Below are positions 32,201 to 38,200 of a stretch of 64,000 nt of DNA, piece by piece. Source of the DNA: Siphonodentalium dalli (lineage: Eukaryota > Mollusca > Scaphopoda > Gadilida > Siphonodentaliidae); the NCBI GenBank assembly GCA_032622095.1, contig CP136064.1, forward strand, positions 128,203,605 to 128,267,604. Direction: 5' to 3'. Both the position numbers and the translations under genes were made by a program. The notes below the pieces were generated by a model that saw only the letters and a list, made by a program, of their open reading frames with translations, made no database searches and had not been told where the DNA came from. How positions within the stretch are numbered: the first letter of the stretch is position 1; the number at the start of each line of letters is the position of its first letter.

Positions 32201-35200
32201 ATAAATGTAATATTATAATAAGACAAACATTAATTATCTGCCAACCATCTGTTCATGCAGCCAACAAGAATTGCTGACAAAAATTACATTGTTTCCCTCC
32301 AAAGTTTGAGTAGTTCAAACCATCATTATGTTAGCATACGTTGTTCCAAGGAAGATAACTCTATCTTTTAATACATCATGTCATTGAACATTTGTCCATG
32401 TGTAAAATCCGGCGTCTTCTGGTAAAAATAGCATCATGTTCTGATAATTCATCATTGCAAAACAATTGAGTATCAAGTGTCAGACAAGAACGGAATCAAA
32501 ACTCGACTATTGGTATGGCGAGGGATGGTAACAAACCTATATAACATAGCCATTTATTGATGGATTCTGATAGTTTGTGGTATGTGAGTTAATTTAATTG
32601 TCATGTGCGACAGATGTACACAGAAAATAGGGTCCACCCCAATTTTCTAACCAGAGTTATGGCACTTGTTTCTATTTATAAAAATTTGATGTCTGTTAGC
32701 GTGATAACTTGAACAAATGTCAACCAATTTCATTCATATTTGGTGTATGGATCTTTCACAGCAATATCTTGATCAAGTTCGAAAATCGGTTTTGTCTGAT
32801 CTATTACCTGAGTTATGGCCCTTAGTTCATCTATTTTTAGCAATTGTAGGATATTTTATGCACGTTAGCATGATAATTTTAACAAACATCAACCAACTTC
32901 ATTCATATTTGGTACATGTATATGGATCTTTTACAACAATATCTTGGACGAGTTTGAAAACAAGATTTATCCTATCCTTTTTACCTGAGTTACAGCCCTT
33001 AGTTTGTCTATTTTGAGCAAGTACCGAGTTTTGATAAGCTACAGCGGCCATGGTGGCTGGAGCCTGGGACGCTCATAGATGGCCTAATATTTGGAAATAA
33101 CATTTTAACCCTTTGATGACTAAATACTCTCTGTTGAGTAACTAACTTTGGTAATGTTCAGATAGTGTTCTCTCATTATTTCTGTGGCTTCCATTCTCGA
33201 ACAAACTGTAACTGCTACAGGAAGCTTTTATTGAATCCTTTCATGACAGGAGCTGTGCTGGTGCAGCATTAAATATCCTGTGCCAGTGCATTCTGTTATA
33301 TATGCGAGTCTCCCATAGGGAGCCTCCCATATATAAGAGAATGGACTGGCTTACAAAGTCAAGGTCAATATTATTAAGCTATGTATTCTCGTATATATGC
33401 GAGGTTCCCTATGGGAGACTCGCATATATAAGAGAATGCATTGGCACAGGGTTTTCGCTAAATTTCAGGAAGCTCTATTCATGGAAGGTTTAAAACCATT
33501 TGATGACTAAATACTCAATGACAAGTAGTTCACTTGGGAGTTCAGCGAACGGCCTTGTTGAACTTTACCATATCTGAACACTCCTTCCAAAAGACGGAAC
33601 AATAATCATTCCAATGTATACTTTTAGAACTGAATAGGAGATTTAATTCAGTAATGAATGGTTTAAAACAAATGTTTGAACTTATAACCATTTTTGTTAT
33701 CAGGAAGGTCTAGGCAATGGTGAACTTACTGGAACATTCTGTGGCACTCCAAATTATATCGCTCCTGAAATTCTCCGAGGTGAAGAGTATGGTAGGTCTC
33801 CAGTTGCCGAGCAGTGAAACTAACAGAGTTTTCTCTTCACTTTTAGATCTAGCTGTGTTGTCAAAACATTTGTCACTTAAGACTCCAGATTCAGTCAGAG
33901 TCTTTAGAATTTATAAATCATGTTGTTTAGGCTCAATGGGCCAGGCACCAGCCTGGAGTGAATTATCAGGGGAGGTGACTTCTCTCTGTTGCAGCAATAA
34001 AGGTGAAATGAAGTGGGCTGGGCGTCTCCCAGGGCAATGTGTATTTAGAATCATTGTATTTGAACCACTGAAATCAGATAAAGCTAAAGTAAATTATAGA
34101 ATGTTTCTTACATAACCCAGTTTTTGAACGTGCAGCATGTTTGCGACAACTAAGAATTATAACCAAGCAAATATAGCTCTATTTTATTGCTCATATCTTT
34201 ATATTTTTGGTCGATCGCGTACTTTGACCAGGTTAATTTTTGACTGCCATATGAACAGTCACTCGAAATGTGTGATTTTTTAAGTTAGTGGGTGATTGAT
34301 CTTGCCCAACTACAAAATTATGGTGAAGCTAGCAAGAATAGGGAGAAGTTATCGCTCTTGTCCCTCTCCCAGCTGGTTCCTGCAGTGAGCCATAGAAATT
34401 TAATTTAATTTTTCTTAGGCTGGTAACTGTACTCATAAATAATTCCACAAAATTTGAAGAAAAAAAAATAAGAAAAAAAATACACTGACCCATATTATAA
34501 ATTTAGTGTCAATTTCAGAGAGTGGGGAATTGAAAAAAAAAAAGCTACTTATGTCACACTCTGTATAAGTCACACTGATGCTGAGCTCTAGTCATACTAG
34601 GCTGTATACTGGCATTTTAAGTTTTATGCAGAGTTTCATAATATGTGTTCTCAAATCAATATTTACTGGTCACAAAACCAATGTGCCAACTAATACTTGG
34701 GGTTCCATTATCCCCTGATTGAGTATAATCAGCCTGAGAAATGAAAAATTAATTTACACTTACTTCCAAAAGATAGCCAGATACAGTTTACACATATGTG
34801 TGATTTCTGACATGTGTTGCTCTTGCCAATGAAAAATGTATATCACATGACCCTAAATCTATGCATGCACTGGCATTTCTTATATGAAGAAAAGATATGG
34901 GAGAATGTTATTTTTTATATAGTCAACTCACCTTATTGATAATCGATATGCTGATAGTGTTGCCACACTATATACAGTGTAAAGGTCATCGGATTATGTG
35001 GTTGTTGTACACAATCACTATGTGTGTATTACATGTAACATTACGCATTCCCTTTCATATGACTTTTCATGTAAGAATTATCCTTACAGTAATATAACAA
35101 CCCATGTAGATGGCATATGTGCATGCAGTCAACCTGGCTATTTATTCTCTTCACAAAAAGCAGGACAAAATTTCTGATGCTTCAAAAGAGTTGACTGAAT

Positions 35201-38200
35201 ATGTCTCTGTCTCATCTTCTAAAGGGGAAAGAACTTCTAGCAGCAATTTGCACATTCAACCATATTTGTGTTTATCTCTACCCTCCATTATAACTAGTTT
35301 ATTGTTTGTCCTTACTTCATTCACTTCTATTGTTTAAAATAAATAGGAGGGTCTATTAAACAGAGTTGACAAACACATTTTGTGGCACGCCTAATTATAT
35401 TGCCCCAGAAGTTTTGCGAGAAGAATATGGAATAAGCAAATTTTCTGTATCAACAGTATGATTCATGCAACCTTGTTTGCATATGATGTTCATATAAAAA
35501 TTAGCGCTATAACAACCCATGTCTGACGGCATATGTATGCGTAGCTCAACCTGGCTATTTATTCTCCTTCCACTCTCATATAGCAGGACAGACATTCTGG
35601 TGCTTCAAAAGAGTTAACTTATTAAAAAATTACTCAGAATTATTTTTCCTGCTATTTTCTTTTAGTTACTATGTCTAAGAAAACTGATTGAGTCATTGTT
35701 CAACTTAAAGAATGTATTTTAACGAATTATTGAAATTTCAAGCACATTTTCACTGCATACTTGTCTTTCAGAGAGTAGGATTTCAGTGAATTCTGGATAT
35801 TAATTCTTATTACCTATGTCAAGGTAATTCTTGTATTTTCATACGTTGCATCTTACATATAGTTATACATACTGCTTTTATGTTCTTGGAACAATTACTC
35901 TGATTTATTAGTAGTAATCCTACAATTGATGACAATTGAGAAATATTTATGTTTTGTTCAGATTGAAATTGAGTTTTACAATTCACACATGAGCTTTTGA
36001 ATATAGGTATCTGATGTTGATAAATACAGTAATGCCCTAAGTAATCGACCCCTTAATCACAGCAGAATTATGGGTAACTTTTCAGGATTTAGTCGGAAAT
36101 ATGGCTTGTTGCACCGAGAGCTTTCTGATGAATGGCAACAAGCCATATTTCCAACTAAATCCTGAAAAGTTACCCATAATTCTGCTGTGGTTAAGGGGTC
36201 GATTACTTAGGGCATTACTGTATGTTAAATGTTCATATACTTTTATCAGTTTTCTTGGCATTCTTTTCTCAAATTATTACCATCATTCTGTGGTGGCATC
36301 ACAATCAAAACATCCAAATGCGTCCACCTCAGAAATGATTGTTTGGTTCCTAACTGCTCCTTTAAATGAAGCTTTCTGTCACTTGATTTGAGTTGTGTAG
36401 ACTTCATTGTATTACATTCTATTCTTCAATTTTATGAATGTTTTGGGTTCAATGATCACTATGGTTGAATTTGCATTAAAAGAAAAAAATCATTAAATGA
36501 AAACTTGGGATTCTCAGAAATTTATTTCTTATGCTTTATTTTATTTTTTAAATTGATATATTCTGAAATTTATATAATTCATATCTAAAAAAAACTCTAT
36601 GCTATATATGTTGTGTGCCACAGATTCTAAAAATAATTTGAAGAAGTTATTTAAAAATAAACAAAAACCCAGCTTGTGTGCTTTTATTTTGGTCTTAAAC
36701 ACAATTTTTTCTTAGTCAAAATACATACAACACAATCATCAACTTGACGATAGGTACCTGTAACTCATGGTATGAGTCAATTCAATTTACTGTGGTCACT
36801 CTGCTATGCCTCCTCATCTGAAGGAGAAAGAAATTCTGGCAGAATTATGCACATTCAACCATATTTCTTTTTATCTCTCACCTCCAGTAGAACTAGTTTA
36901 TTGTTTTTTCTTACTTCATTCACTTTTATTGTTTTATTTTGAACAGGAGGGTCTAATAAATGGAGAGTTGACAAATACATTTTGTGGCACGCCTAATTAT
37001 ATTGCCCCAGAAGTTTTGCGAGGAGAAGAATATGGTATAAACAAATTTTCTGTATCAACAGTATGAATCATGCAACCTGCTTGCAAGTATATTCACATCA
37101 TCATTCATACATCAGCATGCATTATTAATACCCAGGGAATAACCCTTCTAGAAATACAAATGATGACACAGTACCCCTTTATTATTATTCATCATACCAG
37201 AAAACCAAAGTTTGTATATTTTTAAATGACCAGATACTTCATTTTTTTTTTATTATACAAATTCAGCTGTATGGGCCTAGGATGGTCAGGGGAGGAGCCA
37301 TTAGGACATAAAATATAGAACAATCAACATATAAGTAGTCGCTGCAAGGGCAGATAATTTATGAGTTGCAAATTATTGACATATATTTGTGTTCATAAAA
37401 TATATTTTAAGAAACTAAATCTTCTGGAAATGAAGCTGTCTGAACAAAATGTTTCACTTGAATAATTAGCCACTCAGCTAGTGCAAGCTTTGTGGGATAA
37501 TTAATTACACTTTTTCGAGAATGGCATTTCCTATAAGAATCACCACTTCTTTACATAACATCACATCACCTGTCTTGAAGCATGTCATAGATCTGTTTTT
37601 GGTGAATTCATAAAAGTAAAACAGCTTTTCGTTTATTGTAATCAGAAAACTGCATGATAATCGGTTACATATGTTTACACACAGATCATGCAAGTATTTA
37701 CTGTGACCTAATCTTTATTGTCAAACCCAGATTATCATTCAATTAGAGTATACCAGAGATGCAGTGTTGCATGAACTTCAGAAAATGTTGAAATACTAAC
37801 ACAAAAGAATTTGTCTATGATATATTATTGCATTGAGTTAAACAAATACACTCATTCAAGATATTTTTAGAGTTAAACAATGGTACCTTTTCATTGTCCA
37901 AATGGCGAACAGAGTCCATCTTGATACAGACGACTTCATATTAATTAATGTTCAATCTTTTAAAGTCGAGAATTGGTTGATATTCATTATAATTAATTTA
38001 TATAGTTAGCATCCTCAGAATATTATGTTGAAAGAATAGACTTATATGTCAACTCTAAACAACCTGAAAATTGTTTGAAAACGAACTGTTAATATATTGG
38101 TATGTGAGATTTCCTTCGACTGAACGGAGAAATGTTTACTGATTAACGTTTTTGAATGAGCCATATGCGAGTGATGATGATGATGATTATTTTTTTAAAT

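Follow-up and report, generated by a model that had tools for sequence, protein, structure and literature searches.

A candidate pair of mutually exclusive activation-loop exons in an atypical protein kinase C gene of the scaphopod Siphonodentalium dalli

Two activation-loop exons in one kinase gene

In a stretch of 64,000 nucleotides from the genome of the scaphopod Siphonodentalium dalli (assembly GCA_032622095.1, contig CP136064.1, positions 128,203,605 to 128,267,604 of the forward strand; referred to here as the window, whose numbering is used throughout), the gene for an atypical protein kinase C (aPKC) carries two intact exons, A and B, that encode the activation loop of the kinase. Judged from the sequence, it is likely that they go back to a tandem exon duplication within the gene and now form a mutually exclusive pair.

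Exon A: 33704-33791, + strand, activation-loop exon of 88 nt, phase 0 in and phase 1 out, encoding 29 residues and one base of the next codon.
Exon B: 36947-37034, + strand, alternative activation-loop exon of 88 nt with the same phases, encoding 29 residues and one base; donor ATG/GTATAA.

On re-reading of the sequence, the coordinates, lengths and phases of both exons were found as the original prediction had placed them, and the AG acceptor and GT donor are intact on both. A codon comparison also reproduced its counts: the two exons differ at 23 of 88 bases (16 of these at third codon positions), and the 29 codons divide into 12 without any difference, 14 with synonymous differences and 3 with a replacement. 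A similarity by chance was ruled out, since the exons match in phase and, aligned in register, share 65 of 88 bases and 26 of 29 residues. The replacements are G/I at exon residue 4, G/N at residue 10 and I/V at residue 23. In the alignment to PKC iota, residue 10 directly precedes the Thr that is aligned with the Thr of human TFCGTP, and the G/I and G/N swaps lie at -7 and -1 relative to this presumed PDK1-site Thr. The human PKC iota reference EGLRPGDTTSTFCGTP has PGDTT in this segment where both the A and the B form have NGELT, and it carries Ser at the position before the activation-loop Thr. Exon A itself differs from human PKC iota at residues 4 and 10 and agrees with it at residue 23. 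In AGC kinases the residue preceding the activation-loop Thr varies.

The surrounding gene was traced by tblastn over 294 kb of the region with a human PRKCI sequence as query. The modelled segment consists of k1-k4, A or B, and k6-k9 with exact borders; the exons of the linker between the C1 and kinase domains lie outside the model.

C1-domain exon: 8097-8225, + strand, borders read from the sequence.
Exon k1: 25562-25726, + strand, aPKC kinase exon with the Gly-rich loop and the catalytic Lys region.
Exon k2: 26516-26613, + strand, aPKC kinase exon.
Exon k3: 28371-28507, + strand, aPKC kinase exon.
Exon k4: 28998-29083, + strand, aPKC kinase exon with the catalytic loop; 5' partner of A or B.
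Exon k6: 41650-41775, + strand, aPKC kinase exon; 3' partner of A or B, which occupy the place of k5.
Exon k7: 43118-43197, + strand, aPKC kinase exon.
Exon k8: 44749-44954, + strand, aPKC kinase exon with the end of the kinase domain and the start of the C-terminal tail.
Exon k9: 48510-48597, + strand, last coding exon, FEGFEY and stop.

The borders at 29083 and 41650, predicted as the splice partners of both exons, fit by homology and frame. In the same search the PB1 exons were located about 3-4 kb before the start of the window and the C1 sequence ended at 8225. For the kinase in its B form the best ten PDB sequences are all PKC iota (top E 5e-191), followed by PKC beta at 2.7e-115, and the Pkinase and Pkinase_C domains were found in both forms. 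FEGFEY in the last exon corresponds to the acidic hydrophobic motif of atypical PKCs, for which an acidic residue at this motif is the rule according to PMC7104321. By these features the gene is an atypical PKC of the PRKCI/PRKCZ type. A genome search with the A+k6 peptide yielded 132 matches (150 of 214 candidates scored); matches at aPKC level were confined to this locus and a near-identical copy of it, and no other aPKC gene was found among the 132. As aPKC is a core polarity kinase with one locus among these matches, an alternative loop would show that exon duplication can diversify a highly constrained regulatory element.

Reading frame and proposed splicing of the exon pair

With A alone or B alone the modelled segment forms an open kinase segment of 357 residues that runs to the natural stop. 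Inclusion of both exons leads to a stop at residue 208 of the segment and skipping of both to a stop at residue 171. Because both events shift the frame to an early stop, a full-length kinase needs exactly one of the two exons. The statement of the original prediction that use must be exclusive therefore holds for transcripts that make the full-length kinase, but it does not reach beyond them: exclusivity would be enforced at least by the frame and nonsense-mediated decay (NMD), and an exclusion of the other exon by the spliceosome does not follow.

In the proposed mechanism the spliceosome would join the end of k4 at 29083 to one of the two exons, A or B, and the chosen exon to the start of k6 at 41650. 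Two full kinases would result, which would differ at three residues, two of them at -7 and -1 from the Thr presumed to be the PDK1 site and the third at the Ile/Val position further on, whereas double inclusion or double skipping would place an early stop inside the kinase domain and send the mRNA to NMD. We infer that B would be spliced in today, that exclusivity may be regulated beyond filtering by NMD, and that the residue swaps may tune priming or the conformation of the loop; an altered PDK1 priming or dephosphorylation rate is plausible, and the change of activation or substrate choice suggested in the original prediction would be a possible outcome. Tissue- or stage-specific forms of aPKC, in which the G/N and G/I swaps would set priming, phosphatase sensitivity or partner choice, are a rather doubtful extension of this proposal. 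If they existed, the activity of a polarity or memory kinase would be set by splicing and not, as in vertebrates with iota and zeta, by a second gene.

The intron between A and B (33792-36946) measures 3,155 nt, too long for the exclusion that a very short intron would impose. Exons 4a and 4b of OGDH are a comparable pair, since they arose by exon duplication and their combined length is not a multiple of three, and their exclusion depends on a restricted intron and on branch points that lie far off (PMC7969005). One of two exons is chosen in OGDH, as is proposed here; however, the intron is restricted in OGDH and long here, and a device of the OGDH type is for this reason unlikely in the aPKC gene. 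Competing intronic RNA pairings are another known exclusion device (PMC6071210).

It is possible, though somewhat unlikely, that B is used without any regulated switch, being included to a variable degree while NMD clears the double forms and the two loops are equivalent. This explanation shares the exon pair itself with the one that we prefer. It would fit the small number of replacements, three only, with two of them at residues 4 and 10, where A also departs from the human protein, and the long intron, extended by a further 1,366 bp in the other copy of the region, leaves no room for a distance-based exclusion. The long-term upkeep of the protein sequence of B, for which the evidence is given below, argues instead that the B form, or the possession of both forms, is of value for fitness.

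The splice signals of B bear on its present use. The +5 position of its donor (GTATAA) is A, whereas each of the 8 remaining internal donors in the kinase model has G there. Scored on a weight matrix, the donor of B reaches 3.1 bits, that of A 8.1 and the seven other internal donors 2.6-10.7, with k8 as the lowest, below B. Weak donors are common in regulated exons. The weak donor of B would also fit an early stage of decay.

Probable past selection on exon B, and the dead duplicate of B

A third copy of the exon, missed by the original prediction, lies in the intron between A and B.

Copy C: 35347-35429, + strand, dead duplicate of B, 83 nt; GT donor lost (GA).
Upstream flank of B: 36804-36946, + strand, similar to the upstream flank of C (about 35205-35346).

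C is 91% identical to B. Aligned with B, it shows gaps of 2 nt and 3 nt; it is out of frame, and its donor position reads GA instead of GT. On account of the two indels and the lost donor it is dead as an exon. Because B and C have intron flanks in common on both sides, B was duplicated together with its surroundings. No flank similarity between A and B was found in the repeat listing, and the split between A and B therefore looks much older than that between B and C. In the proposed course of events a second, younger duplication would have copied B along with the intron sequence on either side and so produced C, which has since decayed. A single intron records both the birth and the death of exons, with an old duplicate that was kept and a younger one that is dead. 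Between C and B there is also an inverted repeat at 36001-36246 with arms of 112 nt, 89% complementary and 22 nt apart.

The dN/dS comparison of A and B, proposed as a check on the original prediction, was carried out. The NG86 method gave a nonsynonymous rate (dN) of 0.129 and a synonymous rate (dS) of 2.47, maximum likelihood gave 0.075 and 33.8 and YN00 returned no value, so that dS is to be read only as saturated. When 11 or 12 neutral changes were simulated on B, at most 3 replacements and no stop were obtained with P 0.010 or 0.005. In addition, drift was simulated on an A-like exon with its AG/GT borders, using substitutions only and 4,000 runs per depth. An intact exon with at most 3 replacements was left with P 0.087 at a depth of 0.1, 0.014 at 0.15 and 0.0008 at 0.2, and in 0 of 4,000 runs at 0.3. 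Between B and C, 3 of 83 aligned sites differ in the exon as compared to 26 of 190 in both flanks (Fisher p 0.011); against the upstream flank (22/141) p is 0.007.

These results suggest that selection has probably acted on B as a coding sequence through most of its past. The claim that selection for protein function has kept B thus stands for past coding constraint, as shown by dN/dS and the simulations, but not for the present, because a recent loss of use fits the simulation as well, which would allow B to have evolved neutrally of late to a depth of about 0.1-0.15 substitutions per site.

Several results weigh against an exon pair that is under selection and in regulated use today. Apart from the saturation of dS, the ratio of dN to dS between A and B includes the constraint on A. 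When the number of neutral changes simulated on B was as low as 6 or 8, P was 0.27 or 0.08, which is not small, and the comparison of the B-C exon with the 50-nt downstream flank alone (4/49) is not significant (p 0.42). In the comparison of the two region copies described below, the 88 nt of B are too short to reveal current constraint. On the side of splicing, the donor of B is weak, and 14% of the GTs in the window score at least as high on the same matrix. A crude test for complementarity between introns went slightly beyond the best of 12 shuffles for one of six intron pairs and not for the other five.

That B was functional for a long time and recently went out of use like C, with the gene now using A only, is unlikely. 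The death of the sister copy C, the donor of B without G at +5 and with its weak score, and the neutral phase allowed by the simulation would all agree with such a loss. However, B keeps its frame and its AG and GT borders in each region copy and aligns with A without indels, whereas C has two indels and has lost its donor. A different origin of B and C, as remnants of a formerly functional second aPKC gene, a paralogue inserted into this intron, is very improbable: an old paralogue could likewise show high synonymous divergence while its protein stays conserved, but tblastn of the region found no other duplicated aPKC exon near B or C, and the scored genome matches include no second aPKC locus besides the near-identical copy.

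This copy, likewise not noticed in the original prediction, comprises most of the window, which recurs colinearly about 191 kb upstream (window 1-61789 against C4:128010660-128077434). Among the blocks of at least 1,500 bases, to which the comparison was confined, 12 of 14 show at least 98% identity, and the remaining two reach 96.2% and 97.3%. A gap of 100 N follows about 1 kb after the end of the final block listed for the first copy. The upstream copy is probably an uncollapsed second haplotype, although a real recent duplication is also conceivable. Two independent aPKC genes are less likely than uncollapsed haplotypes in view of the colinear, near-identical blocks and the nearby gap. Both copies hold A, C and B in the same order and with identical sequences, which ruled out an assembly artefact within the gene. 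With the upstream copy taken as a second allele, there are no differences in the 1,162 nt of A, B and the eight other modelled exons, as compared to 238 in 21,816 nt of non-exon sequence. At this divergence single exons are uninformative, because the dead copy C is unchanged as well.

In the other copy the 1,366-bp insertion lies about 180 bp upstream of B (site at window 36758-36766) and makes the A-B intron longer still. It has inverted ends, and the target carries a short direct repeat. A genome search with the DNA of B, which skips very common words, returned four matches, all of them B and C in the two region copies, and no processed copies that would record splicing of B were seen among them. 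Long tandem repeats fill about 70 kb between the region copies (C4 about 128082129-128152447). They are offset by about 7.45 kb and 5.3 kb and are about 98-99.9% identical, and stretches of them are about 72-85% similar to tandem repeats at window 57904-59441 and 61783-64000.

Comparison with known exon pairs and further observations

Mutually exclusive exons inside a Ser/Thr kinase domain are known from JNK (exons 6a/6b), p38alpha and the Aplysia PKA catalytic subunit (A1/A2), which belong to kinase families other than aPKC. Among the papers listed in searches of openly licensed PMC text, none was found to describe an aPKC whose activation-loop exons are alternative or mutually exclusive. The A/B pair would add to the known tandem-duplicated exclusive exons, and its location in the activation loop of an aPKC would be unusual.

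FYN has a tandem-duplicated exclusive pair that reaches into the kinase domain (PMC9741552), but that pair spans the SH2-kinase linker and, within the kinase, the N-terminal portion that holds the ATP site, whereas A and B encode the activation loop. PKM exons 9/10, CACNA1C 8/8a and FGFR2 IIIb/IIIc are named as mutually exclusive in PMC12627340; as is proposed for A and B, one of two alternative exons is chosen, but the genes are different ones. Alternative splicing of an invertebrate aPKC is also on record for Aplysia Apl III, where a splice cassette enriched in the nervous system lies at the start of the catalytic domain (PMC5650170). In contrast to the activation-loop exons described here, the transcript variants of vertebrate Prkcz/PKMzeta come from an alternative transcription start with a unique first exon, and the sections of PMC7104321 at hand name no alternative activation loop.

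The genome search with the A+k6 peptide also brought up kinases at other loci. Of the 132 matches, 95 fall in a large array at C2:149826918-150603541, in which a TSSK6-like (testis-specific) kinase gene, apparently without introns, is repeated in tandem. In 10 kb of this array four open reading frames (ORFs) of 269 aa are spaced by 2,359 bp, and their best PDB match is TSSK6 (E 2.3e-56). Two kinase matches on C9, about 273 kb apart and with identical scores, may be another case of an uncollapsed haplotype. Within the window, repetitive ORFs overlap on both strands at 42410-43003, which is evidently a tandem repeat.

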